Source: a virus
Length of the DNA stretch: 45,446 bases
Reading direction: 5' to 3' (one strand)
Virus record (IMG/VR): IMGVR_UViG_3300032783_000004
Location: 1 to 45,446 of that record
Both the position numbers and the translations under genes were made by a program. The notes under the pieces were generated by a model. That model did no database searches and was not told the DNA's origin. It worked only from the letters and a program-made list of their open reading frames with translations. Shown piece after piece: positions 5,481-44,470 of this stretch. Positions within the stretch are counted from its first letter, which is position 1. Every line of letters begins with the position of its first letter.

Positions 5481-5483
5481 CAT

Positions 5484-6761
5484 ATGGATAATCTTTCCAA
5501 GTTGACATTGGCAGTACGAGATTACGGTTTGTTTATGCATCTGGCACAGGACTGTGCAAGGGAATATAAGGAAATCCTTTACTATGTTCCGTGGGAAGGA
5601 TCTTATCCTACTACTGATAAAGCCAATATCGGTGTGGGGGTCCCGGGGCTGACTAGAGTCTATGACTGGCATGAAGCGGTCCGACAAGCTGATGAAGTTG
5701 CATTATTTGATGTTGGCATGGATAGTATCCGGCAATCTGTAATCAAGGAATTCAAGAAGCCCTGTATGGGCGGTACGGCCAGCATCATGGAATACAATCG
5801 CATATATTTCAAAGAAGAGTGTTTAAGAAAAATGGGATTACCCGTCATCCCCTATAAAGTCATTATCGGGTGGGATGCCCTTTGTCTGCATCTGAAAAGT
5901 AATCCTAATAAACATGTCAAAGTTAATACTTTCAGAGGTGTGCTTGAAACCTTTCATGCAAAAGACTATAAATTTGCTATTCCTAAGTTAGAAATGGCCG
6001 CAAAAAAACTTGGTTCGTGGAAAAATAAAATGCCCTTTATCGTTGAAGATCATGTTCCCGGATTCCAAGAACAGGCAGATGGTGCAGTAGAAACCGGCGA
6101 TGATGATTTCAAATTGCATGGAGACCCTTTATCTATCGGTACCTGGGGTTTTGAAATAAAAGACAATACCTATGTGTGTAAAGTCGATGATTTGGATAAT
6201 TTCCCAACACCGTTAAAAGAAATACGAAAAAAACTTAATTCCGTTTTCAGAGACCATGATGTATGCGGTATGGGTTCTTCCGAGATCAGAAGAAACACAC
6301 AGAAATCATTTTATTTAGATGATTGTAGGAGGGCCGGATCTCCACCTTCTGAAATCCAGGGTGAACTATTTACGAATTTCCCACGTATCGTGCATGCGAT
6401 AGCCAATAACCAAAGAATTGTGCCGGCATTCAAAGCTAAGTACGGCGCCATGATATTGATTAAAAGCGAAATGGCGCTTGAAACTCATGTGCCGATGGAT
6501 TTCAAAGATCAGGATTTGAAGGTTCTAAAAATGAGGAATCTTTATAAAGTAGATGACCAATATTACCACATCCCGCAAGATGGTTTATCATTCCTGGGAG
6601 CGGCCATTGGCTGGGGCAACGATAAGGAAACAGCTATGGACATGGCGCTTGAAAACTCCCAGAAGATACAATGTGACGAAGCCCACTGCGAAGTTGACGG
6701 GTTCGAGAAGCAAAAGGAAGTGTTTAAGGCTGCTGTGAAAGTGGGATTAGGGACATTTTAG
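5484..6761 (+). CDS. ATP-grasp superfamily ligase
   Basis: 425 residues, starting 3 nt after the giant protein's stop behind GGGAGG, so probably co-transcribed with it. The C-terminal half has the ATP-grasp metal/nucleotide pattern: an acidic strand 'PFIVEDHVPG', then 'GMGSSEIRR', then 'FYLDDCRRAGSPPSE', resembling the E-x-R and D-x-R elements of PurD/carbamoyl-phosphate-synthase-type ATP-grasp enzymes. These enzymes join a carboxylate to an amine or thiol through an acyl-phosphate. The substrate cannot be read from the sequence. Its place beside a virion protein gene would allow a role in modifying virion protein or a small molecule, but this is inference. It could also be a degenerate member. 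The family call is fairly sure, the function is not. Confidence 0.65.
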   Translation: MDNLSKLTLAVRDYGLFMHLAQDCAREYKEILYYVPWEGSYPTTDKANIGVGVPGLTRVYDWHEAVRQADEVALFDVGMDSIRQSVIKEFKKPCMGGTASIMEYNRIYFKEECLRKMGLPVIPYKVIIGWDALCLHLKSNPNKHVKVNTFRGVLETFHAKDYKFAIPKLEMAAKKLGSWKNKMPFIVEDHVPGFQEQADGAVETGDDDFKLHGDPLSIGTWGFEIKDNTYVCKVDDLDNFPTPLKEIRKKLNSVFRDHDVCGMGSSEIRRNTQKSFYLDDCRRAGSPPSEIQGELFTNFPRIVHAIANNQRIVPAFKAKYGAMILIKSEMALETHVPMDFKDQDLKVLKMRNLYKVDDQYYHIPQDGLSFLGAAIGWGNDKETAMDMALENSQKIQCDEAHCEVDGFEKQKEVFKAAVKVGLGTF

Positions 6762-6865
6762 TTATCCCATTCTTCCCACCATTGAATATCAACAGGGAAA
6801 TAGACATTACAAAAAGGCTTTAATGTTTCTAATTGCTGTTGGTTTTTAATTTGGAGCATCCACAT
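6758..6865 (-). CDS. small hypothetical protein (35 aa)
   Basis: Short minus-strand frame starting 'MWMLQIKNQQQLE' and ending 'IQWWEEWDN'. Its TAA overlaps the TAG of the convergent ATP-grasp gene, the tight packing typical of real phage genes. It starts just inside the flank of the inverted-repeat element at 6871-8222. With that element removed, it would directly follow the 8224-8565 gene and gain a possible ribosome site (GGATAGG). It may therefore be the last gene of the minus-strand operon, now separated from its leader. No family recognised. Confidence 0.45.
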   Translation of the reverse strand: MWMLQIKNQQQLETLKPFCNVYFPVDIQWWEEWDN

Positions 6866-6870
6866 ATCGG

Positions 6871-6886
6871 TAGTGGGTCAGTTTGA
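6871..6886 (+). repeat. left terminal inverted repeat
   Basis: TAGTGGGTCAGTTTGA, exact inverse of 8207-8222. Homology stops after 16 bp. Confidence 0.75.
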
Positions 6887-7008
6887 GATTTTCGACTATT
6901 GTTATACTTGCATGATTATGATAATCTACTATATTTCATGTATTATAATTTTTGCCGGATTCATCAGACATTAAGAGTAACCCCCGCAATGGAAGCAGGG
7001 ATTACAGA

Positions 7009-7212
7009 TCATGTATGGACGTTGGAAGAAATCCTAAAACTTACCTGAGCGCCACAATCTTCTGCTGGCTCTATCTTTAGTATTTCCTCTTTACTTGTCT
7101 TGAACGGGAGCTGCCTCGGCAGGGATTTCATCAGGTTTTTTACCAGCGGCGCATTCTTCCGAATGTTCTCCCGCCTTATCGTCTCCAGTCTTTTCATTAT
7201 TTCCTTGTTCAT
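7009..7212 (-). CDS. possible small gene overlapping the protease 3' end (67 aa)
   Basis: A basic protein beginning 'MNKEIMKRLETIRRENIRK', out of frame with the last 40 codons of the serine protease gene and extending 82 nt past its stop. In favour: AAAGAGGTG about 5 nt before the ATG, and a protein-like helical N-terminus. Against: the overlap of about 120 nt. The overlapped protease tail is low-complexity (Glu/Lys/Ala/Pro), which would leave room for a second frame. No family recognised. Confidence 0.35.
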   Translation of the reverse strand: MNKEIMKRLETIRRENIRKNAPLVKNLMKSLPRQLPFKTSKEEILKIEPAEDCGAQVSFRISSNVHT

Positions 7213-8077
7213 GGGGCACCTCTTTTTCTGCTTTCATCTTAAAATACCACTCACTAAGACTACATACATACGGTGTGTCTTCGTCAATATTGTCAACTAA
7301 AAGACTATTTATTTGCGTTACTAGAGATTTTTCTTTTTCATTTGGTTCACGTACATTCTTAAATAATTCAGCAGCCTCAGTCCGGTCGATCACAAACCCA
7401 TGATCTGGATACCCGGTAACAAGCCTTTCAAGTGCTTTATCTTTTAGGTTTTGTTTCCCAATGCGCTCACCATATTCCATTGAAACCATGACGGCGCGAT
7501 GAAGTTCTCCGACTCTTAATGGATCAATCTGACCATATATCGGCGCAAATAACCCAACGGTTAAATCGGCAGCTATATCCATGGCGCTTTTTGTGGTTAT
7601 TTGGAGTCCACTTCTTACTCGAATATTGAGAAAATATTCCTCGAACATGCTAAAGGCATGGTTCTGGAGCGACGCTAAGGCTTGTGTAATAGTTAGGCCA
7701 GAGCTCCTTTCCCCTATTTCGTCAGCCTTCCTTATTTGAACATCCAATGGTCCAATTTCAGCATGATCCGACATAATAATTTCATTTGCACCTAAAGCCA
7801 ATAATGTGCCGGCGCTCTTACATACAGTATGTATGAGTACAGAAAAATGTTCAAAATGCGTCTTGAAGCACCTGGCTATACGGTATGCGACATGAGCGTC
7901 TCCCCCGTTGGTTGCCAATAGCAACAAGACACGCTTTTTCTTCTTTCCACAATAGGAACGCACTAAAAGGTCATCATGGGGTCTTTCCAACGGTCCACTG
8001 TAAATAATAACCTCAGTCTGATCATCCTCTATAATAGAAGATAACGTGTCGAATAGTTTTTGCTCAAAAGAATCCAT
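7091..8077 (-). CDS. SDH-type serine proteinase (ClpP/crotonase fold, SppA-like)
   Basis: 328 residues. The core matches the serine dehydrogenase proteinase (SDH_sah) family of ClpP-fold, S49-like proteases: 'LATNGGDAHVAYRIA' (about 54-68), the nucleophile motif 'VCKSAGTLLALGA' with Ser88, and 'DHAEIGPLDVQI' after it. A Ser-Lys dyad would be expected; the Lys cannot be assigned with certainty. No signal peptide is seen, so it is probably cytoplasmic. The tail after about residue 285 is low-complexity and charged. It is the only clear gene inside the inverted-repeat element and runs against both neighbouring plus-strand blocks, which looks like acquisition as cargo. A weak promoter (TTGCTT, 18 nt, TATCTT) lies upstream on the minus strand. 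Substrate unknown. Confidence 0.8.
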   Translation of the reverse strand: MDSFEQKLFDTLSSIIEDDQTEVIIYSGPLERPHDDLLVRSYCGKKKKRVLLLLATNGGDAHVAYRIARCFKTHFEHFSVLIHTVCKSAGTLLALGANEIIMSDHAEIGPLDVQIRKADEIGERSSGLTITQALASLQNHAFSMFEEYFLNIRVRSGLQITTKSAMDIAADLTVGLFAPIYGQIDPLRVGELHRAVMVSMEYGERIGKQNLKDKALERLVTGYPDHGFVIDRTEAAELFKNVREPNEKEKSLVTQINSLLVDNIDEDTPYVCSLSEWYFKMKAEKEVPHEQGNNEKTGDDKAGEHSEECAAGKKPDEIPAEAAPVQDK

Positions 8078-8206
8078 GGCTTCAAATATGTGATTGGAAA
8101 GTTGCTATAAGTAATGACTTCATAAGATAGTCTAAGTATCGTGCAAAAAGCAAGTTTAAATTGCGTTACGCCAAAGGATGGTAATGATTAGTCAAAACCT
8201 TAGATA

Positions 8207-8222
8207 TCAAACTGACCCACTA
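8207..8222 (-). repeat. right terminal inverted repeat
   Basis: Read on the minus strand this is the same 16 bases as 6871-6886. It lies immediately before the stop codon (8224-8226) of the minus-strand gene at 8224-8565. Confidence 0.75.
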
Positions 8223-8223
8223 C

Positions 8224-8565
8224 CTATCCAGTAATGGCCTTGCTTAATACATCCTCACCCTTCTCTCTCGCTTTTACCTCAGCAGAAAGTCCATTGAGTA
8301 AATTGCCTATTTGGTCGTTATGCTTGTCAAGGATCCCATCAAACCGTTTATACCATATAAACCGAATACCCATAGCTGCTATCTGACAAGCCTCGTGACG
8401 CATCTGGAGGTAATCCCGTTGGACATGCTTTTTCTTAACCATATCCCACAACTCATCCATCTCTTCGAGTATGACCGCATAGCCTTCGTGTGCAGAAACA
8501 AAAGGGCCGTTGTTGTCAGTTGCAGATACCAGTTCTTATAGAACCTCAATAATTGCCTCTTCCAT
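8224..8565 (-). pseudogene. conserved phage protein with an in-frame TAA after codon 9
   Basis: From ATG 8565 the frame encodes MEEAIIEVL, then TAA (8538-8536), then continues without a break for 103 codons to TAG at 8224. The part after the stop, 'DNNGPFVSAHEGYAVILEE' followed by 'MDELWDMVKKK', resembles a common phage protein whose signature (GPF-x-SAHEGYAVI-x-EE-x-DELW) I recognise without a function. The conserved block starts before the next ATG (8460), so initiation there would lose it. Either a nonsense mutation broke the gene, or translation reads through or starts at a non-ATG codon near 8532. The inverted-repeat element sits directly after its 3' end. Confidence 0.65.
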
Positions 8566-25830: not shown

Positions 25831-26670
25831 TCAATCATCATTGAGTTCATCTTCAAACAATTCTGGCTCATAGTCTTTAATCTGTTCTTTGCAGGTATAA
25901 CACAACCTGCCTTTTTCTTGGTGTTCTTCGTGGCATAAATGGCAATGTTTAATGTCGGTGATCGGATCAATATTACACTCGTCCAGGTGCCCATACGATG
26001 TTGACAAATCAGCGCAATCCATGCCGATTGGATACATCTCGATTGTTTCTATTTTGCTGCGGTGGTTGTAATTGTCAAAAGTATACCAGGAGATCGTCTG
26101 TAAATAACTAATATTGGAATAATGACAACCATCGTCAATCGTCCAGGAGCCGCCGTACAACAATACTTGACCGGACTTGTGCATGATTGCCCATTTGCTA
26201 TTGGTGGCAAGTTCTATCAAGGCTTGGATTGCTGGTTGTTTTAAGCGCTTGAAAGAGAGGTCAGCCATAACCTCTTTAATAAATATCATTGTATCTGAGA
26301 GGTGTTTATGCCTGGGCAGATCAAGAATAATCCCGTTATGTGCTACTCCTGTGTCCCCAGCTATGTTCAAAGCAATCAACTTTTGTGGGTTTTTGCATAA
26401 TATAAAAGGGTGAGTGTTGCCAGCGGCCTTTTCCCCGTGGGTTGCTAATCTAAAGTGCAGGATCATAGCCGTGTCTTTAATATTGATCCGCTTTTCAAGG
26501 CTCCATAAAGCGGCCATAAGTTCGGGCAGTTTCATAAAACCTTTTTCGATCATAACATAGTTGCCATCTGCATACATAAAACCTGCCCCATCTCCATTGT
26601 TAGCAAAGCAAGTTTTTAATCGTCCGTATGGCATGTCTACGCCTTGTGGCTTATGGATTATTATGCACAT
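25831..26670 (-). CDS. class-II glutamine amidotransferase-like Ntn hydrolase
   Basis: 279 residues. 'MCIIIHKPQG' places Cys2 as the N-terminal nucleophile after Met removal. 'ILHFRLATHGEKAAGNTHPF' and 'DTGVAHNGIILDLP' are the R-x-A-T-H-G...H-P-F...HNG motifs of class-II glutaminase (GATase) domains, which release ammonia from glutamine. A C-terminal zinc ribbon (CHLCHEE...CYTCKEQ) is added. The start overlaps the end of the amidoligase by 10 nt with AGGGAGG inside that gene, so the two are translated together. Pairing of amidoligase and GATase-type proteins is known from comparative genomics. The product of this pair is unknown. Confidence 0.8.
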   Translation of the reverse strand: MCIIIHKPQGVDMPYGRLKTCFANNGDGAGFMYADGNYVMIEKGFMKLPELMAALWSLEKRINIKDTAMILHFRLATHGEKAAGNTHPFILCKNPQKLIALNIAGDTGVAHNGIILDLPRHKHLSDTMIFIKEVMADLSFKRLKQPAIQALIELATNSKWAIMHKSGQVLLYGGSWTIDDGCHYSNISYLQTISWYTFDNYNHRSKIETIEMYPIGMDCADLSTSYGHLDECNIDPITDIKHCHLCHEEHQEKGRLCYTCKEQIKDYEPELFEDELNDD

Positions 26671-28145
26671 GATGCTGCCTCCCTTCTCACTTCGGGTTGA
26701 ACCTGCGCTGGCTGGCGTGGCGGAATTAGGTTTTTACCTTCTGCATAAACGCGCAATGCAGGATATTTGTCTTGTGCTAATACCTTTTCCAAGAGTTCGG
26801 CAAAAGTCTCAATTTTTGCAATTTGTTGAATAGAATGATTCTTGATATACCTTACGAGGCCATCTACCCATTCCAAACAAGCGTATATAGTCGAGGTCTT
26901 CAATGTCCCCCTAAAGGCTCTAAATTCGATAGTTGCCCAGGGTGTTACGTTAACAGCCATATATCTGTCAGTGTGGTGTTTATAACCTTCAATGTAGGTT
27001 TGTTTAAGTTTCGGTTTCGCAAAACAAAGTACAGATTTGCAATATGTGTTATAATCTCGCCTGTTGAAAGTTACCAATTCGTCAACAAATTTGTCATAGA
27101 GGTATAAGAGTTTTAACACATGCAGATCAATAATCTTGTTTGAATCCCCTAAGAAATTCTTATTGACATGGATATGCAAACCACAATTATCGGTGCTATG
27201 GCTTTTATATCCCTGCTCTCTGCATAGGTTTGTAATTTTGTCCCAATTAAAATGTTCCCTGTGATAAGCAAGTGTCGCGGGATGGTTTTTAATTTCAAAC
27301 CCAACATCTGTCAGTGATCCGTCTGCGGTAAAAATCAAGTTTTGATCATCAACGTCTAATAGAGCATCAATAAGCTGCTTTGTATTTCTCCCCCCATCAA
27401 CTTCTAATTCTATACCAAGATATAAGGGTGCCCGTCCCGTCTGCATCATGTGTCTTGATTCGTTTGCCGTTTGCAAAAAATTGTAATATAAAGGTTTCCA
27501 ATTGTGATGATGGATGCAGTCATGTTGCCATTGTACCGGATCTCGTTCTTCTTCATTATCATCTTCATCATCTTCATCTTCGTTTCCGTCAATGCACTCT
27601 TCTTCATGTGTAGGAAGGCAACCAGCACATACATTAACATGGCATAAAGAACATGTACGTGCATCCTCAAGAAAATAATAGGTTTCGCACGAGTGACAGG
27701 AAAATGTCACATTTTCAAAGCAAGTAGGACACACGAGGGTGCCTTCAACCTCATAAAAATCATCACCTCTTATATGCAGGTTGCATATGCCGCATTTATA
27801 AAAAAATTGTTCAAGGCATGAAATGCATATGAGGGCGTAACCTTGCCTCCGTATATGAACATTCGTCATGTCTGCTTTCAGCATTTCAATTTGGCAAATG
27901 TCTTCTTTCAGCATTTCAATTTGGCAATTCTCACACATGCCGACATGGTGTGAAAAACAACTGTCACAAAAAACCTCTTTTTGGAACATTTTTCCGTTTG
28001 GTCGCTTACCGGAAGTCCTTGTTGTATCGCCGCAAACCGAGCAAACCTCCAAAGCCAAGTCAAGTTGTTGTGATATTTGCCACTTTGTGATGGTAATATC
28101 TAGGGTTTCCAAATCCGATAAGTCTGAGTGTTGTTCTTCTTCCAT
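26661..28145 (-). CDS. amidoligase (Amidoligase_2 / COOH-NH2 ligase) with N-terminal zinc-ribbon tandem
   Basis: 494 residues, behind AAAGGAG. Residues about 30-195 hold four or more C-x2-C clusters (CSVCGD, CDSCF, CENC, CISCLE, CGICN, CPTCFE, CHSCE, CSLC), followed by a very acidic linker. The C-terminal part starts 'APLYLGIELEVDGG', then 'ADGSLTDVGFEI', 'STDNCGLHIHVNK', 'HTDRYMAVNVTP' and 'TIEFRAFRGTLK', matching the amidoligase family related to gamma-glutamylcysteine and glutamine synthetases. It could join amino acids or modify a peptide or protein. It includes a recent 30-bp tandem duplication. First large gene of the minus block. Confidence 0.8.
   Translation of the reverse strand: MEEEQHSDLSDLETLDITITKWQISQQLDLALEVCSVCGDTTRTSGKRPNGKMFQKEVFCDSCFSHHVGMCENCQIEMLKEDICQIEMLKADMTNVHIRRQGYALICISCLEQFFYKCGICNLHIRGDDFYEVEGTLVCPTCFENVTFSCHSCETYYFLEDARTCSLCHVNVCAGCLPTHEEECIDGNEDEDDEDDNEEERDPVQWQHDCIHHHNWKPLYYNFLQTANESRHMMQTGRAPLYLGIELEVDGGRNTKQLIDALLDVDDQNLIFTADGSLTDVGFEIKNHPATLAYHREHFNWDKITNLCREQGYKSHSTDNCGLHIHVNKNFLGDSNKIIDLHVLKLLYLYDKFVDELVTFNRRDYNTYCKSVLCFAKPKLKQTYIEGYKHHTDRYMAVNVTPWATIEFRAFRGTLKTSTIYACLEWVDGLVRYIKNHSIQQIAKIETFAELLEKVLAQDKYPALRVYAEGKNLIPPRQPAQVQPEVRREAASCA
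27871..27930 (-). repeat. 30-bp tandem duplication in the amidoligase zinc region
   Basis: CTTTCAGCATTTCAATTTGG plus three more identical bases occurs at 27875 and 27905 with a period of 30, adding a 10-residue unit (CQIEMLK-x-D-x) and one extra Cys. Confidence 0.8.
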
Positions 28146-29048: not shown

Positions 29049-29630
29049 ATGAAAACGACCGACACTAAAGATAGATCCATCACACCAGCGCCGCCGCCCG
29101 GGGGCAAAAAAACACGTAAGCGTTATGCCACGAAAGAGGAGGCCCGAGAAGCTAAGCGTGTGCGGGATGCGGCAGCCGACAAACGACGTAGGGATCGCCA
29201 GCGGCAAGAACAGGAAGAGGGTGTACCGGTTTTGACTACCGAGCAAATGCTGAATTCTATGCGGCAGGTTTATCAGAAGATGGGGGGCGTGAAAAACCTA
29301 CTTCATCATATGAAAACACATCCCAGGGACTATGTGGCGATGGTCCAGAACTTAATGAAGATTGAAGCCTCGTTGATGGAAGCTAAAGCAAAGAAATCCG
29401 GGGGGGAAGAACCCCAAGGTGTTTTTGTAGTGATGAAGGGCCTGGCGGAGGGTACCATATGTCCACATTGCGGCAAAGATGCAAGTGCACCGGTTACCAC
29501 CACGTCGATACCTGGTGAAGAAGAGGATGAAGAAAAGAGTGAGGTAAAGGAGGTGTTTGAAATTGAGGGCATGAATAATATTCTAGATCCTGGAGCTGAA
29601 TCAGCAATTCAGGCAGGTGGAGAGTGGTGA
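29049..29630 (+). CDS. probable terminase small subunit
   Basis: 193 residues, behind GAGGG and 25 nt after the promoter -10. A basic, Arg/Lys-rich N-terminal part (about 20-57, helical) suits DNA recognition. 'GGVKNLLHHMKTHPRDYVAM' and 'MKIEASLMEAKAKKSG' follow; then a C-x2-C (ICPHCGKD) and an acidic tail. No sequence motif proves it. Position as first late gene, two small genes before the large terminase, is the main argument. Confidence 0.5.
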   Translation: MKTTDTKDRSITPAPPPGGKKTRKRYATKEEAREAKRVRDAAADKRRRDRQRQEQEEGVPVLTTEQMLNSMRQVYQKMGGVKNLLHHMKTHPRDYVAMVQNLMKIEASLMEAKAKKSGGEEPQGVFVVMKGLAEGTICPHCGKDASAPVTTTSIPGEEEDEEKSEVKEVFEIEGMNNILDPGAESAIQAGGEW

Positions 29631-31754: not shown

Positions 31755-31958
31755 ATGGATCTTATAGCAGCAATCCAAGGATATTTCTCAACAGGCGGCT
31801 TGCTTACCCTTTGCCCGGCAGGATCGGCATGCTGGCCGGCCATCACAGATCCGGTGGTTGAATACCGAGCCCAGGACAGCGATCTTTTAGAATATATAGG
31901 ACACGATATCGAGAACGTGAGCAATAATTATAAATTACCGAGAAGGGAGAGGGCTTAA
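31755..31958 (+). CDS. hypothetical protein (67 aa)
   Basis: ATG 31755 behind AAGAGGTG. Overlaps the next gene by 1 nt (TAATG). 'MDLIAAIQGYFSTGGLL' then 'LEYIGHDIENVSNNYKLP'. Similar in style to small tail-completion-like proteins but not assignable. Confidence 0.5.
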   Translation: MDLIAAIQGYFSTGGLLTLCPAGSACWPAITDPVVEYRAQDSDLLEYIGHDIENVSNNYKLPRRERA

Positions 31959-34846
31959 TGTTCAAATCAGTTTCCATTTATGGTTCATTTAATGCAGTAA
32001 CCGGCTATGGCATTCATCTCACCAATTTTGTCAGAGAATTGGAAAAACTCATTCCCGTCATCCGCAACAAGCCAGGCGGTGAAGTGAGTATCAGCCTTCT
32101 CGACAGTGTCAGTGTCCAATACGTTAAAACTGCATGCCCGTTTCCATCTATCCTTTACAACGTCTGGGAATCAACCCGGCAGCCAGACAAATTCATGGAG
32201 AATTGTAAGAAGTTTTATCATCAACTCTGGGTACCCTCCAAGTGGCAGAAAAAATATAGCGTTGAGCAGGGGTTAGAGGATTCGTTTGTGAAGGTGGTGC
32301 CAGAGGGCGTTGACCCGGAGAAATACCAACCATTCTTATATGACAAGGATACTTCTGGACGTTTGCCAGAACCTATATTTAATTTCCTGATAGTGGGTAA
32401 ATGGGAAGACCGTAAGTACACCCGGGAAATGATTCGGGCGTGGCTTGATGCATTTCCAGAGGATAAATTCCCCTATCTTCGTTTGCATGTGAAGGCCGAC
32501 AACCCTTTTCCCGTGGACCAGTATAAAACCACAGAGCAGCGCCTTAAAGCCTATGGGTTAGAAGACAAGCGTATCATCCCCGTTCACTTCGAGAGCCAGG
32601 AATCACACATCAAGCGGCTTCAGGCAGCCGAAGTATATTTATCCTGTTCCCGTGCTGAGGGCTGGAATTTGCCATTGATTGAGGCTTTGGCTTGCGGCAT
32701 TCCTTCCATCGCACTCGATTGGTCCGGCTCTACAGAGTTCTACCATTTCACTAACCTTCTGGTCGGTGTGGAAAAGCTCATTAAGCCATTCAACGTTTAT
32801 GGCCAGCCTAATTGCCCTGGCCAATGGGCCGAGCCGAACTACCAAGATCTGAAAGACACCATCAGTGAAGTCTACGAGAAATATTCTTTTTATAAAAAGC
32901 AAGCCTTGGCGATTTCCACTGAAACCCGTGAGGAGTTCAGCTGGGCCCAGGCAGCGAAGAAAGCCTATGCGGAATTGGAAGAATTATACAAAACCATAGC
33001 TCCCAAAAAGATCATCTGTGAAATTTCCACAGAGGGTGTAAAAGAGACAACGGATGTTGTAAATAACACAATGTTCAGCCATGAAGGAAAGACACGCATT
33101 CTGCCAGATCAAGACATCTTTGTTGTCGGCGCATGGCCATCATCCCAGGACCGTATGCAGACCTTAATTGAAACAATCAGCCAGATCAAGGCGCTTGGTT
33201 ATCCTGTGATGGTATCATCTCATTATCCACTTCCCGCGCCGGTTACTGAATCCGTGGATTACTATATTTTTGACAAGGAAAATCCTTTGTCTGACGATTG
33301 GAAACTCACATACTACCGTCAAAATGAACAGGGAGAAATGGAAGCCCGTAAAGGTAACAAGCCGTACCATGCCGTTGCTTGCCTCACCGCCATGCGCAAT
33401 GCCATTGACTTCTGTAAAGGTAAATTCAGACGCATGTATTATATGGAATTCGACCTTGAGGTAGATCTTCCGGCTTGGTTGGAAAAAACAAAAGATGCAG
33501 ATGGGATTTGTTTGATAGATTATCAAGGGACTGGTTATCGTTCAGACTTTTTTGCAGGTCCTATAGATTTGTTGGATAAGGTCTTCCCGCGGATACGTAA
33601 TTGGAATGAATATTCCGCCTATTCAACTGAGAGCGGGTTTATTTTAGAAAATTGGATCAAGCAATACTGGTCAGATTATTACAAAGATGTCCCTATCACC
33701 ATGATTGAAGATATCTTACTTGGCAATCGTTTCGACCAAGTTGAGCGTGATGTCTGGGGCGATGATGTTTTTTTATGCCATTTTGTTGAGGGTCCATACT
33801 TACAGGTCAATGGAATGTCTAATCGTACATATCAAGTTTCTTTTACCACTCCTGAAGATGGCGTTATCTATCGTGCAGAAGCTAAATGCGGCACTTGGGT
33901 CCGGCCTTCAATTAAGTTCTTCCGTGAATGGCAAATTGAAGCCAAGCATGAAAATGAGGTGAAATTTTCTCATCAATTTGATGCAGAAAATCAGCGTGTC
34001 TTAATCTCTATGGGTTCCAAGGCTTTGGGCGATAATCTTGCCTGGGCGCCATATCTTGAAGAATTCCGTATGAAGCATAAATGCCATTTAATCGCTTCAA
34101 CATTTTTTAATGGCATGTTCGATTATCCTGAGTGGGAATTGGCTGAACCAGGGGATACTATTAAGAATCTCTATGCATCATTCGAGGTAGGCTGTTATGA
34201 TGGTCAGCTAAATAAAAATCCAACCGACTGGCGCTTAGTTACCCTTCAGCAAATAGCCACAGACATCTTAGGGCTTCCTTATGTTGTAAGAAAACCTAAG
34301 CTCAAGATCCCCGATACGCCCCGTAGAGTGGAAGGCAAGTATATTTGTTTTTCTGAGTTTTCAACCATGCAGCCCAAGCTCTGGAACAAGGAAAACGCAT
34401 GGCAAAGAACTATTGATTACCTTTGCTCATTAGGGTATAAATGTGTAGCTTTGGGAATGGAATCAAGCAAATTACAGAATATCATTAAACACCATGGCCA
34501 GACAATTGAAGAAAGCATTACCGACCTCCTCTACTGTGACTTTTATGTAGGCTTGGGTCACGGACCTTCTTGGCTCGCCTGGGCATTGGATAAGCCGGTT
34601 GTAATGATTTCCGGCTTCTCGTTGCCACTTGCGGAATTTGAAAATCCATATCGTGTCATTCGTACTAATGTTTGCCATGGATGTTTCAATGATCCAAAAG
34701 TAAAATTTGACCGCGGGTGGGAATGGTGTGAGAGAAAAATGTGGCAAGGTAAAAAGGTGCAGCGTTATGAATGCACCAGGAAAATCACCCCTGATATGGT
34801 GATAAAAACAATTGATCAGTTGAGGGCCGACTATAATCTGATATAA
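31958..34846 (+). CDS. three-part glycosyltransferase: GT4 domain plus TibC/BAHT-type O-heptosyltransferase domain
   Basis: 962 residues, between large terminase and portal. Residues 1-350 are a GT4 domain: 'GSFNAVTGYGIHLTNFVREL', 'WVPSKWQKKY', 'VVPEGVDPEKY', 'SRAEGWNLPLIEALACGIPS' (E-x7-E, near 232-251). A middle part (about 380-650, 'VVGAWPSSQDRMQTLIETI') I cannot name. From about 670, 'VLISMGSKALGDNLAWAPYL', 'RLVTLQQIATDILGLPYVVR', 'YVGLGHGPSWLAWALDKPV' and four cysteines (906, 909, 924, 939: VCHGC, EWCER, YECTR) match autotransporter strand-loop-strand O-heptosyltransferases (TibC/Aah), whose cysteines bind iron. Those enzymes glycosylate Ser in repeat proteins. A role on virion proteins is inference from context. 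Confidence 0.8.
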   Translation: MFKSVSIYGSFNAVTGYGIHLTNFVRELEKLIPVIRNKPGGEVSISLLDSVSVQYVKTACPFPSILYNVWESTRQPDKFMENCKKFYHQLWVPSKWQKKYSVEQGLEDSFVKVVPEGVDPEKYQPFLYDKDTSGRLPEPIFNFLIVGKWEDRKYTREMIRAWLDAFPEDKFPYLRLHVKADNPFPVDQYKTTEQRLKAYGLEDKRIIPVHFESQESHIKRLQAAEVYLSCSRAEGWNLPLIEALACGIPSIALDWSGSTEFYHFTNLLVGVEKLIKPFNVYGQPNCPGQWAEPNYQDLKDTISEVYEKYSFYKKQALAISTETREEFSWAQAAKKAYAELEELYKTIAPKKIICEISTEGVKETTDVVNNTMFSHEGKTRILPDQDIFVVGAWPSSQDRMQTLIETISQIKALGYPVMVSSHYPLPAPVTESVDYYIFDKENPLSDDWKLTYYRQNEQGEMEARKGNKPYHAVACLTAMRNAIDFCKGKFRRMYYMEFDLEVDLPAWLEKTKDADGICLIDYQGTGYRSDFFAGPIDLLDKVFPRIRNWNEYSAYSTESGFILENWIKQYWSDYYKDVPITMIEDILLGNRFDQVERDVWGDDVFLCHFVEGPYLQVNGMSNRTYQVSFTTPEDGVIYRAEAKCGTWVRPSIKFFREWQIEAKHENEVKFSHQFDAENQRVLISMGSKALGDNLAWAPYLEEFRMKHKCHLIASTFFNGMFDYPEWELAEPGDTIKNLYASFEVGCYDGQLNKNPTDWRLVTLQQIATDILGLPYVVRKPKLKIPDTPRRVEGKYICFSEFSTMQPKLWNKENAWQRTIDYLCSLGYKCVALGMESSKLQNIIKHHGQTIEESITDLLYCDFYVGLGHGPSWLAWALDKPVVMISGFSLPLAEFENPYRVIRTNVCHGCFNDPKVKFDRGWEWCERKMWQGKKVQRYECTRKITPDMVIKTIDQLRADYNLI

Positions 34847-38859: not shown

Positions 38860-39058
38860 TCCATACACCCCCTAAAGCAACCCCTGATTGTGATATTTCG
38901 CAGTTGGGGGTTGTGACATCTCACAAACTGGATACTTTTTATCCACCTTCCTTGCGATATTTCACAATTTTCTTGACTTTTTCACAAAAACGTGCTATAT
39001 GACCGCCATAAAATAGTCGTGTCCTATTTCGGGACACACTTGTTCTTTGGAGGTTTTT
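38860..39058 (+). promoter_or_regulatory. control region before the capsid genes, with promoter and operators
   Basis: Contains CAACCCC/GGGGTTG (38878-38913, possible weak hairpin), GTGACA (38913-38918), the palindrome CTGGATACTTTTTATCCA (38928-38945), the promoter TTGACT (38973-38978), 17 nt, TATATG (38996-39001), and GTGTCC-N7-GGACAC (39019-39037) just past the expected start site. 'GATATTTC' also occurs twice (38892, 38956). A regulated second late promoter for scaffold and capsid is likely. Confidence 0.65.
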
Positions 39059-40069
39059 ATGGCGAATCCTACTGACAGAGGGGCGGCAGGTGAAGACAAT
39101 AGTTCTTTGGAAAGTATCGAAATCTTTAGTAATGCGTTTGATGAAGCTACGGGAGAGGGCACATCTGGGACAGACGGAACATCCGGGGTAGCGACCGGAG
39201 ATGTTTCTGATTTCAAAGGTGAGCTTCCCGAGAATTCAGACACTACGCAGTCCACTATGGGGACCCAGGCAGTATCCGGCACGGCTGGAACTTCTGGGAC
39301 GGTGTCAGCTGACGATGAGAAGGCTGAACAGAAGTACCGAACACTTCAGGGTATCCTCAAAGCGGAAAAAGATAAGTGGGAGCAAGAAAAGGCTGTACGC
39401 GATGCTGAAATAGAAAGGCTAAGGGCAGCAGGAACAGCTGGCAGGGCAACTCAAACTCAGACCTTTGACGATCCTTATATGAATTTGTCGGAAGAGGACA
39501 AGAAGGCCTTAAAAGAATACGATACGGAATATGACACGGTATCCAAGTTTGAGGCAATCAAGCGCAAAGCTGAATTAGCTGCTTTAGAAGGTAAACTGAC
39601 AACCAGCATCCGTAAAGAGTTTCAGGAGGCTTTTAATTTCCTTATTCAGTCAATGGCCCCTGTTCTTTCCACCACAGAGCAAATTTCTGATGAACGACAT
39701 TTTGGCGCCATCAAAAACAAGCATGCAGACTTTGAAAAATATCGTGACGATGGATCTATTGAAACCTGGATCAACAGCAAGCCGAAGTACCTTCGGGACG
39801 CATACGTTAGTGTTTATAACGATGGTTCTGCCCAGGACATCATAGATTTGCTCGACACGTTCAAAAAAGAAAATAACATCGGCCCCCCGGTTGTGACTGA
39901 CGCGGCTGGAACGGCTGGTACTTCTGCTGACCTCAAGCATGACAAGGAGAAAAAGAAAGAAGCCCTAGCTGGCGTACATTCTAAGAGAACTCCTACGAAT
40001 TATAGCCAGCTTGACAAAGACGATTATGCTGGGGCATTCGATGAGGCAGCGAAGAAATTATCAACTTAA
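39059..40069 (+). CDS. scaffolding-like protein with Gly-Thr-Ser repeats
   Basis: 336 residues from ATG 39059 (TGGAGG; an upstream TTG is less likely). Acidic N-terminus with repeats at about 33-43 (GEGTSGTDGTSG), 73-82 (SGTAGTSGT) and near 281-289 (AGTAGTS). A charged coiled-coil middle ('LKAEKDKWEQEKAVRDAEI') and helical C-terminal part are typical of phage scaffolds encoded just before the capsid. Repeats use different synonymous codons each time, which points to selection at the protein level. Confidence 0.65.
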   Translation: MANPTDRGAAGEDNSSLESIEIFSNAFDEATGEGTSGTDGTSGVATGDVSDFKGELPENSDTTQSTMGTQAVSGTAGTSGTVSADDEKAEQKYRTLQGILKAEKDKWEQEKAVRDAEIERLRAAGTAGRATQTQTFDDPYMNLSEEDKKALKEYDTEYDTVSKFEAIKRKAELAALEGKLTTSIRKEFQEAFNFLIQSMAPVLSTTEQISDERHFGAIKNKHADFEKYRDDGSIETWINSKPKYLRDAYVSVYNDGSAQDIIDLLDTFKKENNIGPPVVTDAAGTAGTSADLKHDKEKKKEALAGVHSKRTPTNYSQLDKDDYAGAFDEAAKKLST

Positions 40070-40086
40070 TTTAGGAGGTATTCCCC

Positions 40087-41091
40087 ATGCCAATGACCAC
40101 ATACGGTGATATTCAACCAAGAACTGCTGCATTTGTAGCAGCTGACCTTTTGAAGCGTGCCATGCCTTATCTCTGTCTGGAGAAATTTGGACAGTCACAT
40201 CCGCTTCCGGAACATAAAACAACGTCTATGATTTTTAGACGTTATAATGCTCTTGCCCTGGCAACCACAGCGCTGACCGAAGGCGTTACCCCTGCTGGCA
40301 AGAAACTAACCAAAACAGACGTACCCGTTACGCTTGCTCAGTATGGCGATTTTGTGGAGATTACTGACGTTGTTCAGGATACCCACGAAGACCCGGTTCT
40401 TCAGGAAGCCTCTGCGGTTATTTCTGAACAGGCAGCCAAGACCGTTGAAACCATCCGGTACAATGTTCTCAAAGCCTGTTCCAATGTCTTTTACGCAAAT
40501 TCGGTTGCGGCCAGAACTTCTATCGCTACCGCTCTTGTAAGAGCTGATCAGCGAAAGATAGTTCGAGCCTTGGAGCGCCAGGATGCCAACAGGTTGGTGT
40601 CCATTGTTCGTTCAACCCCCAATTTCAATACTGAAAATATTCTACCTGCTTTCGTTGGTGTTACTCATGTCGATATGACTACGGACATCCGTTCGATGAC
40701 AGGGTTTATCAATGTGGCAGATTATGGGAAGGTTTCTCCTTTCGAGACAGAAATCGGTTCCTGCGAAGATGTTCGGTACTTGAAATCCACAATATTCACT
40801 CCTTACGGTGGAGCTGGCCTTGCTGGCACAACCACTTATCTGTACTCTTTGAGTTCAGGTGGAACGAATAGCTACGATGTCTACCCGGTCATGTTCTTTG
40901 GCAAAGACGCTTATGGTCTTGTCGCCCTTAAAGGTCGATACGCCATTACCCCGATGGTTCTCAATCCTGGTATTCCCAGGGGCGGTGATCCGTTAGGACA
41001 GCGTGGTACGGTGTCATGGAAAACCATGCAGACAGCTATCATTCTGAACGATGCGTGGATGGCAATTGGCGAATTTGCTTGTACAGCTTAA
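40087..41091 (+). CDS. major capsid protein, N4-gp56 type
   Basis: 334 residues, behind AGGAGG. 'LTEGVTPAGKKLTKTDVPVT' then 'QYGDFVEITDVVQDTHEDPV' then 'EQAAKTVETIRYNVLKA' is the hallmark of the N4 gp56 capsid family (HK97 fold). 'KDAYGLVALKG' and 'DPLGQRGTVSWKT' near the end also fit. It has only a short 'GLAGTTTY' instead of the repeats of its neighbours. Confidence 0.9.
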   Translation: MPMTTYGDIQPRTAAFVAADLLKRAMPYLCLEKFGQSHPLPEHKTTSMIFRRYNALALATTALTEGVTPAGKKLTKTDVPVTLAQYGDFVEITDVVQDTHEDPVLQEASAVISEQAAKTVETIRYNVLKACSNVFYANSVAARTSIATALVRADQRKIVRALERQDANRLVSIVRSTPNFNTENILPAFVGVTHVDMTTDIRSMTGFINVADYGKVSPFETEIGSCEDVRYLKSTIFTPYGGAGLAGTTTYLYSLSSGGTNSYDVYPVMFFGKDAYGLVALKGRYAITPMVLNPGIPRGGDPLGQRGTVSWKTMQTAIILNDAWMAIGEFACTA

Positions 41092-41120
41092 CATTGACCA
41101 CATTAAGGAGGTAACAAACC

Positions 41121-41771
41121 ATGACGGATACTTTACTGTATAGCAACACAAAGAAATTTGACGATCCGGCAGTAACTCAGGATGCTGCTGTGAAACGGGT
41201 CGATAAAGGTTTTGAGATGGAGGCAATGCGAAGAGCACTTGCCAGCATCACAAACAGGGTCATTCCTACCTCAGCGGGTGGGACGACAGGCACCGGGTAT
41301 GAGCTCACCGCAGGTTTGGCAGCTGGTTCCGCAGTTGGTTCCATTAAAGCGGCCAACACCTTCAAATATACTATTGATGGCGTGATGTATCAGTACACCG
41401 GAAATACCGACATTGCCATCGCAGGTTCTCTCGGAAACGGTACACAGGGTACAGCCACCACCTGTTATTACCTTGTCAGCGTTGGCACCAATGGCACCAG
41501 CGGGACAGCACTTGCCGGCAATGGCGGTCTGTACGTAACAAAGGGCAATGAAGGGACTTCGGGGACCGGCGTGTTTGCTTATGCGCTCAATTCCACCCCG
41601 TATCTACCGGATTGTCCTGATGGGCAGTGTCCGATAGGGTATTTTTCGGTGATCACAAAAACCACCACACCTTTTGTTCCCGGTACTTCAACGATGGGAG
41701 ATTCGACAAACTTTACCATCGCCTATGGCGATTTGATAGGGATGCCGATTTTCAAGTACGCTGAAGACTAA
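41121..41771 (+). CDS. capsid-associated protein with Gly-Thr-Ser repeats (possible decoration protein)
   Basis: 216 residues, behind AGGAGG, directly after the capsid gene. A helical N-terminus ('EMEAMRRALASITNRVIP') leads into a beta-rich body with 'GGTTGTGYEL', 'VGTNGTSGTALAGNGG' (about 121-136) and 'GNEGTSGTGVFAY' (about 142-154). Position after the major capsid protein and the beta-rich, Gly/Thr-rich composition suggest a head-surface or head-fibre protein. Confidence 0.5.
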   Translation: MTDTLLYSNTKKFDDPAVTQDAAVKRVDKGFEMEAMRRALASITNRVIPTSAGGTTGTGYELTAGLAAGSAVGSIKAANTFKYTIDGVMYQYTGNTDIAIAGSLGNGTQGTATTCYYLVSVGTNGTSGTALAGNGGLYVTKGNEGTSGTGVFAYALNSTPYLPDCPDGQCPIGYFSVITKTTTPFVPGTSTMGDSTNFTIAYGDLIGMPIFKYAED

Positions 41772-41792
41772 TAGTTAAATAGTGCAAAATCA

Positions 41793-41827
41793 TACCAGTA
41801 GGTCGGGACATTCTCGACTTACTGGTA
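41793..41827 (+). terminator. strong hairpin after the capsid genes
   Basis: 16 bp stem with two G-T pairs and a 3-nt loop (TACCAGTAGGTCG... pairing to 41812-41827), then CCTTTAT. The short U-tract suggests partial termination, or an RNA-processing or stability element that raises capsid over tail expression. Confidence 0.6.
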
Positions 41828-41854
41828 CCTTTATAAACCAATGGAGGCAACACA

Positions 41855-42238
41855 ATGGCTAAAGATGCAAAAGAGGGCGTAAAGCCAGAAGAAAAACCAA
41901 AGGTCGAAAAGTTTATCAATCCGCAGGGGCACATCCGGGATAGGATTATTATGCACCAGACAGCTGATATCCCTAAACAGGGTGCATTTATTTCACTCAA
42001 TGGTTATGCTTTCCAAGCGAAGCCCGGGGAGGCAATCGACATCCCTCGTCCTGTGCGAAAGATGATTGATCTTTGTGTCATCACGGAAATTATTCAGGGT
42101 ACTGATGAAAAAGGTAACTCTGAAGAATATACTCGTAACCGGCCCCGTTATCCCTATACTCTTGTCGCTGAAGATATAGAGCATCCGGATTCTCCATGGG
42201 CAGGTGCTAAACAAGCAGAAGTGGAGGCTCAGGCATAA
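41855..42238 (+). CDS. hypothetical structural-region protein (127 aa)
   Basis: Behind GGAGG. N-terminus charged; 'INPQGHIRDRIIMHQTADIP' and 'FISLNGYAFQAKPGEAIDIP' form a beta-rich middle; C-terminal helix. In N4-gp56-type phages a small protein of this kind follows the capsid. Function unknown. Confidence 0.55.
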   Translation: MAKDAKEGVKPEEKPKVEKFINPQGHIRDRIIMHQTADIPKQGAFISLNGYAFQAKPGEAIDIPRPVRKMIDLCVITEIIQGTDEKGNSEEYTRNRPRYPYTLVAEDIEHPDSPWAGAKQAEVEAQA

Positions 42239-42239
42239 A

Positions 42240-42980
42240 ATGATAGGCCAGGATCTCGTAGACGAACTGCGGGAAAGTTATCTTGACGATAAACAGATTC
42301 CATATCGCTGGCAGGACCTTGAGCTTCTAAAAAATTGTATTCGTGCTGAAGTACAGGCATGTAGACGAGCATATCTTATCATTGACAAGACCACCGTCGC
42401 TGATGGGACTGACGGTACATCTGGTGATCCTATATGCCAGTTGACTGTTGTTCCTAATCAAGCAGCTTATACGCTCAGCAAAAAAGTCCTGCAAGTTGAA
42501 CGGGTAAAACTCGATGGCATGAGTACACCATTGCGTCCACGTACCCGCGATGAACTCGATGCTCTTACGTATCAATGGGATGTTACCCTTGGGACGTCCG
42601 GCACTTTTGGAACTGCCGGTGGTGACATTGTTGTATGGCCACAATGGTTTATACACGAAGCCAATAAAGAGTTAGTTTTAGTCAAGACGCCTACCGTTAA
42701 TAGCGTTGCAAGATTAGTCGTATCCAGGCTGCCGCTTCAAGAATTTACATTAAAAACTGAACCAGAAATAGAGGAACAGCACCATGACGGATTGCTTTTA
42801 TGGGCCGCTCATCTTGCTTTTCTCAAACCTGATTCTGACACTCAAAACATAGACCTGGCAGCAGTTTATGATAAGGCATTTACAGACAGATTCGGACCAA
42901 TGCCTGATGCTTATTCCGAAAAGATGAGGAAGATGCTTCCTCGTCAACAGCGAATGAGACCCAGGCCATTTGGTAGTTAA
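42240..42980 (+). CDS. head-tail adaptor-like protein (DUF6682-type) with Gly-Thr-Ser insertions
   Basis: 246 residues from ATG 42240. N-terminal helices ('DLELLKNCIRAEVQACRRAY'), a beta region ('QAAYTLSKKVLQVERVKLDG'), and 'EFTLKTEPEIEEQHHDGLLLW' with 'LAFLKPDSDTQN' match adaptor proteins of podovirus-like phages. Two short repeats sit at likely loops: DGTDGTSGD (about 55-63) and LGTSGTFGTAGG (about 117-128). Confidence 0.6.
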   Translation: MIGQDLVDELRESYLDDKQIPYRWQDLELLKNCIRAEVQACRRAYLIIDKTTVADGTDGTSGDPICQLTVVPNQAAYTLSKKVLQVERVKLDGMSTPLRPRTRDELDALTYQWDVTLGTSGTFGTAGGDIVVWPQWFIHEANKELVLVKTPTVNSVARLVVSRLPLQEFTLKTEPEIEEQHHDGLLLWAAHLAFLKPDSDTQNIDLAAVYDKAFTDRFGPMPDAYSEKMRKMLPRQQRMRPRPFGS

Positions 42981-42994
42981 TAGGAGAAAATCAC

Positions 42995-43174
42995 ATGGCT
43001 ATCGTAAGACAAAGAAGATTAGAAGAAGACCTTATCTATCGTAGAACTACTGAGTTGCCCAGAAAATTTGGTTCGGATGGTACTTCAGCAGCTGCCGGCA
43101 AAAGCGGTACAAGTGCGGTATCGGGGTCATCTGGGTCATCCGGCTCGTCCGGTAGTTCAGGCACAGGCGCATAA
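42995..43174 (+). CDS. small Gly-Ser-repeat protein, paralogue of the next gene (59 aa)
   Basis: TAGGAG before the ATG. 'MAIVRQRRLEEDLIYRRTTE' resembles the N-terminus of the next gene (I-x-R-x-R-x-L-E-E-D-L...T-x-E-L). After residue 27 come 'SDGTSAAAGKSGTSAVSG' and SGSSGSSGSS-type repeats. The two lie 14 nt apart, a tandem duplication. Probably virion-associated by context. Confidence 0.65.
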   Translation: MAIVRQRRLEEDLIYRRTTELPRKFGSDGTSAAAGKSGTSAVSGSSGSSGSSGSSGTGA

Positions 43175-43188
43175 GGAGGAAATACATA

Positions 43189-43371
43189 ATGGTTATTAAA
43201 AGAATAAGACAACTTGAGGAAGATTTGCTTAACCAGACTACAATTGAGTTATCCGCGGTTGCCGGTACGTCGGGGACTTCTGGCAGCTCCAGCACCTCCG
43301 GATCGTCAGGGACAGCAGGATCATCCGGTACTTCGGGTTCATCTGGAACAAGCGGAACTTCACATCCATAA
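43189..43371 (+). CDS. small Gly-Thr-Ser-repeat protein (60 aa)
   Basis: Behind AAGGAGG. 'MVIKRIRQLEEDLLNQTTIE' (helical, probable docking part), then 35 residues of Gly-Thr-Ser, Gly-Ser-Ser and Gly-Thr-Ala triplets, e.g. 'AGTSGTSGSSSTSGSSGT'. The triplets are spelled with many different codons. The Gly-x-y periodicity is collagen-like. Ser/Thr density would make it a good O-glycan acceptor. Confidence 0.7.
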   Translation: MVIKRIRQLEEDLLNQTTIELSAVAGTSGTSGSSSTSGSSGTAGSSGTSGSSGTSGTSHP

Positions 43372-43416
43372 TAGCGTATGAGTTACGCCACTGAGCCGGC
43401 TAAAATAGGAGGCAGT

Positions 43417-43653
43417 ATGTGCAGTATTCGGATAGAAATATTGGGTGATGAAACTTATACGGTTGAAGTCACCCTTGAAAAACCTGCCGATGGAAATAAA
43501 AAAGAAGATTACCCCCGACATGTGTCTAAGGAATTTTCTGCTCAAGACATCGAGGAAGTCAAAAGTCTTATAGACGAGTATCTTCCTCATCTAAAACCAC
43601 GGGCAGAAGTTGCAGAGTTTGATGAGGCTTTCAGTCAGGCCACCAAAGATTAA
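43417..43653 (+). CDS. hypothetical protein (78 aa)
   Basis: ATG 43417 behind TAGGAGG; an upstream ATG (43378) lacks such a site. 'MCSIRIEILGDETYTVEVTL' is a beta hairpin; helix 'SAQDIEEVKSLIDEYLPHL'. No family recognised. Confidence 0.55.
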   Translation: MCSIRIEILGDETYTVEVTLEKPADGNKKEDYPRHVSKEFSAQDIEEVKSLIDEYLPHLKPRAEVAEFDEAFSQATKD

Positions 43654-43670
43654 AATGGGGGACATCGGCT

Positions 43671-44057
43671 ATGTTAAAAAACTTTGCCCTTACTCGGGGG
43701 GATGTCGGTAACTATACCATCACCATTACGGATGGCAACACTCCGTATGATATTTCCAATTGGTATGTCATATTCACATTAAAGACATCCTACGATCTGC
43801 CTGACACTGATTTAACTTTTCAGAGAATCATTGGTCCAGGGCAACACTCAGATCCCGTCCATGGGATTACTACTCTAACTCTTCACCCTATTGATACGGC
43901 TTTGCTTGCATCCAGAATTTATGATTACGATCTTGTGGTCATTACAGATGCTGGTGATCCGTACACCATTTTGAAGGGCAAGTTCGATTTGCAATATGAC
44001 GTTAATTGGGATCATACCACATCCGGTACAGCTGGAACTGCTGCTACGATTCCATAA
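43671..44057 (+). CDS. baseplate/tail-like beta-sandwich protein with C-terminal GTA repeat (128 aa)
   Basis: 'LTRGDVGNYTITITDG' and 'YDISNWYVIFTLKTSYD' then 'YDYDLVVITDAGDPYTILKG' recall the N-terminal Ig-like domain of upper baseplate (BppU-type) proteins. The last 13 residues are 'TTSGTAGTAATIP'. Tail or adhesin attachment is likely but not certain. Confidence 0.5.
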   Translation: MLKNFALTRGDVGNYTITITDGNTPYDISNWYVIFTLKTSYDLPDTDLTFQRIIGPGQHSDPVHGITTLTLHPIDTALLASRIYDYDLVVITDAGDPYTILKGKFDLQYDVNWDHTTSGTAGTAATIP

Positions 44058-44068
44058 GGAGGATAGAT

Positions 44069-44470
44069 ATGGCAAACCATACTTTAACATCTAACTCGGG
44101 AGTTGTAACTGGCTCCGCTGGAAGTGCCGGTACGGGTGTTATAACTATTACATTTCCGGCCATCTATAATAAAAAACTTGGTGGATTTTTATATGTTCAG
44201 ATGTACGGTACCTGCGCCTTAGTGTTGACCCCGAACGTTATCAATAAAAGGCTAAGTGGCACAGCTCAGTACAATGTTGGTTTTGGAACAGCTGGTGTCT
44301 TAGGCAGTTTCGGGACATCAAACATTACCATCGGAGGAGGCAATTGGAATACTCGAATTCCTCTTCAGGTTACACCAAATGAAAATTCAATCGTTATTAG
44401 CGCTGCTTTTGGAGCAGGGTCTGGTGGTGTAGCTGTTATAGATTACGAGGCCCAGGGAGATTTCCAATAA
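44069..44470 (+). CDS. Gly/Thr/Ser-rich beta protein (133 aa)
   Basis: ATG 44069 behind AAGGAGG. Repeats near the N-terminus (VVTGSAGSAGTGVITI) and mid ('FGTAGVLGSFGTSNITI'). All-beta appearance; likely a virion surface protein (tail spike or fibre accessory). No family recognised. Confidence 0.55.
   Translation: MANHTLTSNSGVVTGSAGSAGTGVITITFPAIYNKKLGGFLYVQMYGTCALVLTPNVINKRLSGTAQYNVGFGTAGVLGSFGTSNITIGGGNWNTRIPLQVTPNENSIVISAAFGAGSGGVAVIDYEAQGDFQ

Follow-up and report, generated by a model that had tools for sequence, protein, structure and literature searches.

Gly-Thr-x triplets dispersed through phage structural proteins as candidate acceptor tags for a neighbouring TibC-type glycosyltransferase

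Why should the same short motif, a run of Gly-Thr-Ser (GTS) or Gly-Thr-Ala (GTA) triplets, recur in structural genes that are otherwise unrelated to each other? The question is raised by the window analysed here, i.e. the whole 45,446-base stretch of IMG/VR virus record IMGVR_UViG_3300032783_000004, in which an earlier reading of the letters alone (the sequence-only reading) had pointed to such triplets and to selection for the peptide itself. Our answer, held with some but by no means full confidence, is that the dispersed triplets are acceptor tags at which virion proteins receive O-linked sugars from a neighbouring enzyme that the phage itself encodes. Namely, an upstream glycosyltransferase gene at 31958, which was absent from that reading, is likely the cause of the triplets. 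Since the tags occur in many particle proteins and this gene is related to that of a protein-glycosylating enzyme, the particles are probably decorated with sugar.

Gly-[Thr/Ser]-x runs are present in every named gene from 39047 onward, with the exception of the major capsid protein (40087). In particular, the scaffold-like protein (39047-40069, on the plus strand like all other triplet-bearing genes given here) has four triplet sites, GTSGTDGTSG at 39158-39187, GTAGTSGT at 39278-39301, GTAG at 39431-39442 and GTAGTS at 39908-39925. A small structural-module protein with no assigned function, encoded between capsid and adaptor (41121-41771), has GTTGTG at 41280, GTQGTA at 41439, GTNGTSGTA at 41484 and GTSGTG at 41553. 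The head-tail adaptor (42240-42980, its start set at the ATG at 42240, while the listed open reading frame starts with GTG at 42204) carries GTDGTSG at 42405-42425 and GTSGTFGTAGG at 42591-42623. Two proteins of about 60 amino acids have arrays at their C-terminal ends: in the first (59 residues, 42995-43174) a short N-terminal part is followed by a Gly-Ser-Ser array, and in the second (60 residues, 43189-43371) an N-terminus similar to that of the first is followed by a Gly-Thr-Ser array. Finally, a phrog_1084 protein (43671-44057; 1.6e-11) has the C-terminal tag SGTAGTA, with its GTAGTA, at 44022-44042, and a small protein at 44069-44470 has GSAGSAGTG close to its N-terminus (44111-44137), besides single GTA and GTS motifs. 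Dispersed triplets are thus present in unrelated structural genes at the places where the sequence-only reading had put them, and its gene list stands for the scaffold, the 41121 protein, the adaptor, both 60-residue proteins and the 43671 and 44069 proteins; for the gene at 29624 it is borne out only by weak pieces that are not in tandem (TGTSG, GTC..GTCGTS). No enrichment of the motif is seen in the major capsid, portal or terminase protein. A six-frame scan gave 11 matches, 10 of them in the frame of the triplet-bearing genes and the remaining one (13896) out of frame relative to the local gene.

Could these runs simply arise by chance in proteins rich in Gly, Thr and Ser? When the residues of each protein were shuffled 4000 times, the structural genes from 39047 to 44467 (the two 60-residue array proteins excluded) contained 8 pairs of adjacent triplets against a shuffled mean of 0.11 (largest value 3), and 26 single triplets against a mean of 6.2 (largest 18). 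The rest of the gene set, 11,298 amino acids, had no adjacent pairs against 0.09 expected, and 9 singles against 13.4. Chance is thereby ruled out, and the frequency exceeds that of random Gly-rich proteins; had the two been equal, the sequence-only reading would have counted this against its own proposal. What is more, the copies are spelled independently: 38 distinct 9-mers are found among 41 triplets in 7 genes, and adjacent triplets encoding the same peptide have 5.86 of 9 bases in common, compared with 5.88 under random codon choice. The earlier statement that each copy uses different synonymous codons, and is hence no recent DNA copy, is borne out by these numbers. The order of residues matters as well. 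Namely, in the window's small structural genes Gly-Thr stands at 2.7-fold and Thr-Gly at only 0.6-fold, and across the window and five related loci (L005, L002, L003, L139 and L017) the corresponding ranges are 2.6-3.2-fold and 0.4-1.1-fold. For Gly-Thr, the values are 1.0-1.2-fold in the window's capsid gene, its portal plus terminase and its non-structural genes, and 0.4-1.5-fold in four named relatives without the enzyme.

Aligning the adaptor to homologues that lack the repeats, as the sequence-only reading had proposed, shows the triplets to be clean insertions at two loop sites. Clade members have approximately 7-20 extra GTA/GTS-rich residues at these sites, whereas three outgroups (L011, L012 and L014) have gaps at both, the second one of 8 residues, with alignable sequence on either side. 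In an AlphaFold model of the adaptor (11 sequences, mean predicted local distance difference test score, pLDDT, of 75.7), the two sites are residues 56-62 and 118-128, and they coincide with the only two internal stretches with pLDDT below 50, 58-61 and 117-128. The protein is an SU10-type adaptor by both sequence (SU10_adaptor 60.7 bits, cut-off 27) and fold, with Foldseek matching portal-tail adaptors of phages GP4, A4 and SU10 (8jov, 2.0e-08). In the 43671 family, all nine displayed homologues have the C-terminal GTAG tag or nearly so (L141 ends in GTAGTL), and some have an internal SGTSGSA or similar. The placement at loops or ends suggested earlier agrees with the adaptor sites and the 43671 C-terminus. 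The scaffold triplets are found in the window and in part in L055, the other displayed homologues having different linkers there. For the 41121 protein, the best Foldseek match is Mtd (E 0.028), obtained with a weak AlphaFold2 model (pLDDT 59.6), and we claim no fold. Independent codon spelling, in-frame, lineage-specific insertions at loops or ends and enrichment of Gly-Thr but not Thr-Gly all support the view that selection acts on the peptide, as opposed to a spread by copying of DNA.

What, then, would select for such a peptide? The gene at 31958-34846 (plus strand), between the terminase (30289) and the portal (34860, best PHROG description 'head-tail adaptor'), encodes a 962-residue fusion. 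It consists of a GT4-type glycosyltransferase domain (residues ~62-343; phrog_2170 4.7e-28, Pfam GT4-conflict 4.2e-11), a middle domain without a Pfam match (~380-600) and a domain of the TibC/BAHT O-heptosyltransferase type (~623-954; PDB 4rap, TibC, 1.2e-46). The last scores 243 bits against TIGR04414 (autotransporter strand-loop-strand O-heptosyltransferase), for which the cut-off is 200. Asp692 (34031-34033, plus strand) aligns with the catalytic Asp110 of TibC, which is Ala in the D110A crystal, and Cys906, Cys909, Cys924 and Cys939 (34673-34774, plus strand) align with the iron-finger cysteines of TibC, numbered after PMC4358343. Both the Asp and the four Cys are invariant in 7 of 7 aligned phage proteins (alignment A2). 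TibC itself is a demonstrated protein heptosyltransferase which modifies Ser and not Thr of TibA in the peptides tested (PMC4358343). By membership, then, the window phage encodes a predicted protein glycosyltransferase of the TIGR04414 family.

Relatives of the enzyme were missed when scanning with the window sequence alone and were found by alignment-based scans. Its gene occupies the terminase-portal gap in the window and lies directly upstream of the portal in L055, and it lies downstream of an array gene in L003, G005 and G017; because of these different positions, the gene has moved within the clade. In one relative (L060 1904-3010, record G002), an in-frame intein with a LAGLIDADG domain sits inside the conserved GT4 motif of the enzyme gene (Pfam Intein_splicing 35.9 bits, cut-off 35.8). 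In record G019 (L047 1129-2166), a 346-residue gene with the portal on one side and an exonuclease on the other, and without a match in the Pfam search, is similar to the enzyme's middle domain (31% over residues 380-586).

Among 36 records reached by capsid similarity, six encode a full-length enzyme homologue or a large part of one, and triplet runs are present in all six loci, in five of them in several structural genes; the sixth, L019, has them in one gene, its contig stopping short within the capsid gene. A capsid alignment was used for a further comparison of 27 out of 80 loci chosen by record length, a choice that left aside L266 (21.6 kb, the locus ending at the capsid gene) and certain others about as long as those used (L272, 17.9 kb); capsid and large array reading frames were excluded from the Gly-Thr ratios. 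The four records with the enzyme domain have triplet runs in 3-5 genes each, and among the 23 without it none has two or more run-bearing genes and five have one. In terms of capsid similarity, relatives at 68-71% identity have runs in 2-4 downstream genes, taking loci with at least three such genes, the exception being L008 (one of three); at 64% (L261) the downstream genes have no runs, and at 54-61% two run-bearing genes occur in none of 23 loci and one in five. In four named phage records that lack the enzyme, none of 44 structural genes bears a triplet run. The contig L237, from an assembly of Candidatus Nitrosotalea, is phage sequence of the window clade (adaptor 48%, enzyme 46%), and its presence in an archaeal assembly is probably a binning error.

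More widely, the TibC-type domain is common in metagenomic phages (at least 519 relatives among at least 599 pattern matches), and named phage records seldom encode it (4 of 50,697). Within 10 kb of the domain, 52 of 80 loci and, in a second set, 7 of 14 have a G[TS]x array of at least 5 triplets; no such array is seen in 30 control loci. Among T4-like records of at least 20 kb (36 of 80 loci), 5 of the 8 that encode the domain contain such arrays, compared with 2 of the other 28 (Fisher test, 0.0026); here, two of nine array-positive records were set aside as having Gly-Ser-Pro runs, and if any array is counted the latter figure becomes 4 of 28 (p 0.013). Starting from the arrays instead, 13 of 30 array-bearing records of at least 50 kb (30 of 80 loci, with L349 excluded as lying in the record of the window clade itself) encode the domain above cut-off. 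The composition of the arrays is similar across lineages, with Thr or Ser at position 2 (~72-93% of triplets), Ser (51-77%) or Ser and Asn at position 3, and rare proline. The Asn variant, Gly-Thr-Asn/Gly-Thr-Ser arrays near the enzyme gene on the opposite strand, is seen in many enzyme-bearing phages (L071, L072, L083, L090, L104 and others). Both Microcystis phage Mel-JY01 and a 735-kb phage have the domain near G-[TS]-[SN] arrays. Mel-JY01 (L053, PP395634.1), which has a name and a host on record, possesses both components, its gene at 4750-8430 encoding a GT4, a methyltransferase-like segment and a BAHT domain in one protein beside Gly-Thr-Ser arrays; its annotation, 'methyltransferase FkbM', would be better replaced by GT4-BAHT fusion. 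Lastly, a scan of a genome collection gave 12 loci with the domain, of which L237 and L246 bear arrays, in L246 as an array protein next to the enzyme; the other 10, a Paraburkholderia isolate included, have no G[TS]x array of at least 4 triplets.

In the mechanism we propose, the G-[TS]-x triplets of small virion proteins would be accessible on loops, linkers and tails, as the adaptor model suggests, and others in collagen-like arrays. The TibC-type domain, judging from its family and conserved residues, would attach a sugar to their Ser or Thr hydroxyls, probably a heptose that the host supplies as ADP-heptose, and the GT4 domain may lengthen or diversify the glycan. As a guess, the glycan could protect or stabilise the particle or alter its binding. 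Most enzyme-bearing phage lineages would have a single long array protein, or a few of them, as substrate; in the window clade, the tag would additionally have spread into several unrelated structural proteins. Whether all of this amounts to a virion-wide sugar-tag system, in which a portable G-T-x motif at loops and ends of several unrelated proteins of one clade is read by a single GT4-BAHT fusion, while elsewhere this enzyme family has as its substrates long collagen-like arrays with next to no proline, an undescribed and widespread class of phage glycoproteins, is in our judgement evenly balanced.

That said, a number of observations weigh against glycosylation of the dispersed triplets. 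Three of four records of the clade reach only 168-195 bits for TIGR04414 in the six-frame search, i.e. less than the cut-off, and 17 of the 30 long array-bearing records lack the domain above cut-off. At the dispersed sites Gly-Thr predominates, most often with Ala (33%) or Ser (19%) as the next residue, and a Ser lies within 3 residues in just 111 of 209 Gly-Thr, while TibC modified Ser and not Thr in the peptides tested. The tagged scaffold-like protein is normally inside the prohead and is ill-suited to surface decoration. The boundary of the dispersal is sharp, yet the records with dispersal together make up a single capsid clade, so that within this capsid family the co-occurrence could go back to one event. 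Moreover, T4-like phages with the domain show neither triplet dispersal nor a Gly-Thr excess near the capsid gene: comparing 9 regions with the domain (8 of 8 records, plus Mel-JY01) and 11 without it (of 28 records) gave a one-sided p of 0.68. Dispersal therefore does not follow from possession of the enzyme, and is ruled out as its general outcome.

How do other explanations fare? The strongest holds that this clade favours the triplets as flexible linkers or turns which bear no sugar, and that the enzyme acts on the long array proteins only. It accommodates the location in loops and ends, the composition of the dispersed sites (GTA, GTS), which differs from that of arrays with mostly Ser at position 3, and the T4-like phages that have the enzyme without dispersal; selection of Gly-Thr over Thr-Gly would, however, be odd for a plain linker, and within the capsid family dispersal is confined to enzyme-encoding records, so that we consider this explanation rather unlikely, albeit one to be taken seriously. 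It is a good deal less probable that the runs are collagen-like or polyglycine-II helices which oligomerise fibres or virion proteins with no need of sugar. Glycine does recur at every third residue, and both 60-residue proteins give weak Pfam Collagen (PF01391) matches, but at 16.4 and 22.0 bits these are below the gathering cut-off of 27.2, by which ordinary collagen is ruled out; the arrays are poor in proline, a dispersed run, at 2-4 triplets, offers little length for a helix, and the enzyme would be left unexplained. Just as improbable, in our view, is an enzyme that modifies host lipopolysaccharide or another surface and adjoins fibre genes as part of a shared host-interaction module. 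Modification of the O-antigen is indeed a role often ascribed to glycosyltransferases of phages (PMC7029224); against this, the C-terminal domain is above cut-off for a family with protein acceptors and tracks arrays of the same composition in unrelated phages. Finally, recent spread of the triplets as DNA repeats, by copying, slippage or conversion from array genes that the same genomes could offer as donors, is contradicted by the independent codon spelling and by runs that keep to the reading frame and, for the most part, to the coding strand, and we deem it highly improbable, ancient copying followed by drift being a possible origin.

Elsewhere in the window, an Amidoligase_2-like protein (26661-28145, minus strand) is followed by a phrog_25883 protein (25831-26670), possibly a peptide-ligating pair.

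If triplets are indeed acceptor tags for the TibC-type enzyme, many uncultured phages would add sugars to their particles by means of an enzyme family hitherto known from the adhesins of bacteria. Once such an enzyme is there, a short motif could spread across the virion proteome. In addition, the Gly-Thr/Ser-Ser/Asn arrays of metagenomic phages would be explained, and a compact pair of peptide tag and glycosyltransferase would be gained. Literature searches on the triplets, on collagen-like phage proteins and on TibC-type enzymes returned no title on a phage TibC-type enzyme or on Gly-Thr-Ser virion arrays.

Among known systems, the phage domain resembles the BAHT family (TibC and Aah, with the autotransporters TibA and AIDA-I as substrates) in its TIGR04414 score, the Asp and the four Cys; unlike that family, it is fused to GT4, phage-borne and has no autotransporter identified with it, and its likely acceptor is G-[TS]-x, often with Thr, whereas BAHT enzymes use Ser in a beta-helix repeat. 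In mycobacteriophages such as Che8, phage-encoded glycosyltransferases have likewise been proposed to modify virion proteins (PMC11256854). There, however, the major capsid protein is modified, while the capsid protein of the window is untagged and it is arrays and smaller proteins that carry the tags. Collagen-like phage proteins share the Gly-x-y periodicity in structural proteins, but the arrays described here have Thr or Ser at position 2, Ser or Asn at position 3 and hardly any Pro, score below the Pfam Collagen cut-off and come with a TibC-type enzyme alongside. The Bacillus exosporium protein BclA has glycosylated GPT repeats with O-glycans on hydroxyl residues; its Gly-x-y repeats are similar, while the phage triplets have no proline and a different enzyme family. 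Ig-like domains, which are scattered through unrelated phage structural proteins, are also a case of one module in many unrelated virion genes; in contrast to them, the phage tag is a stretch of 6-13 residues, independently spelled in each gene, and not a folded domain.

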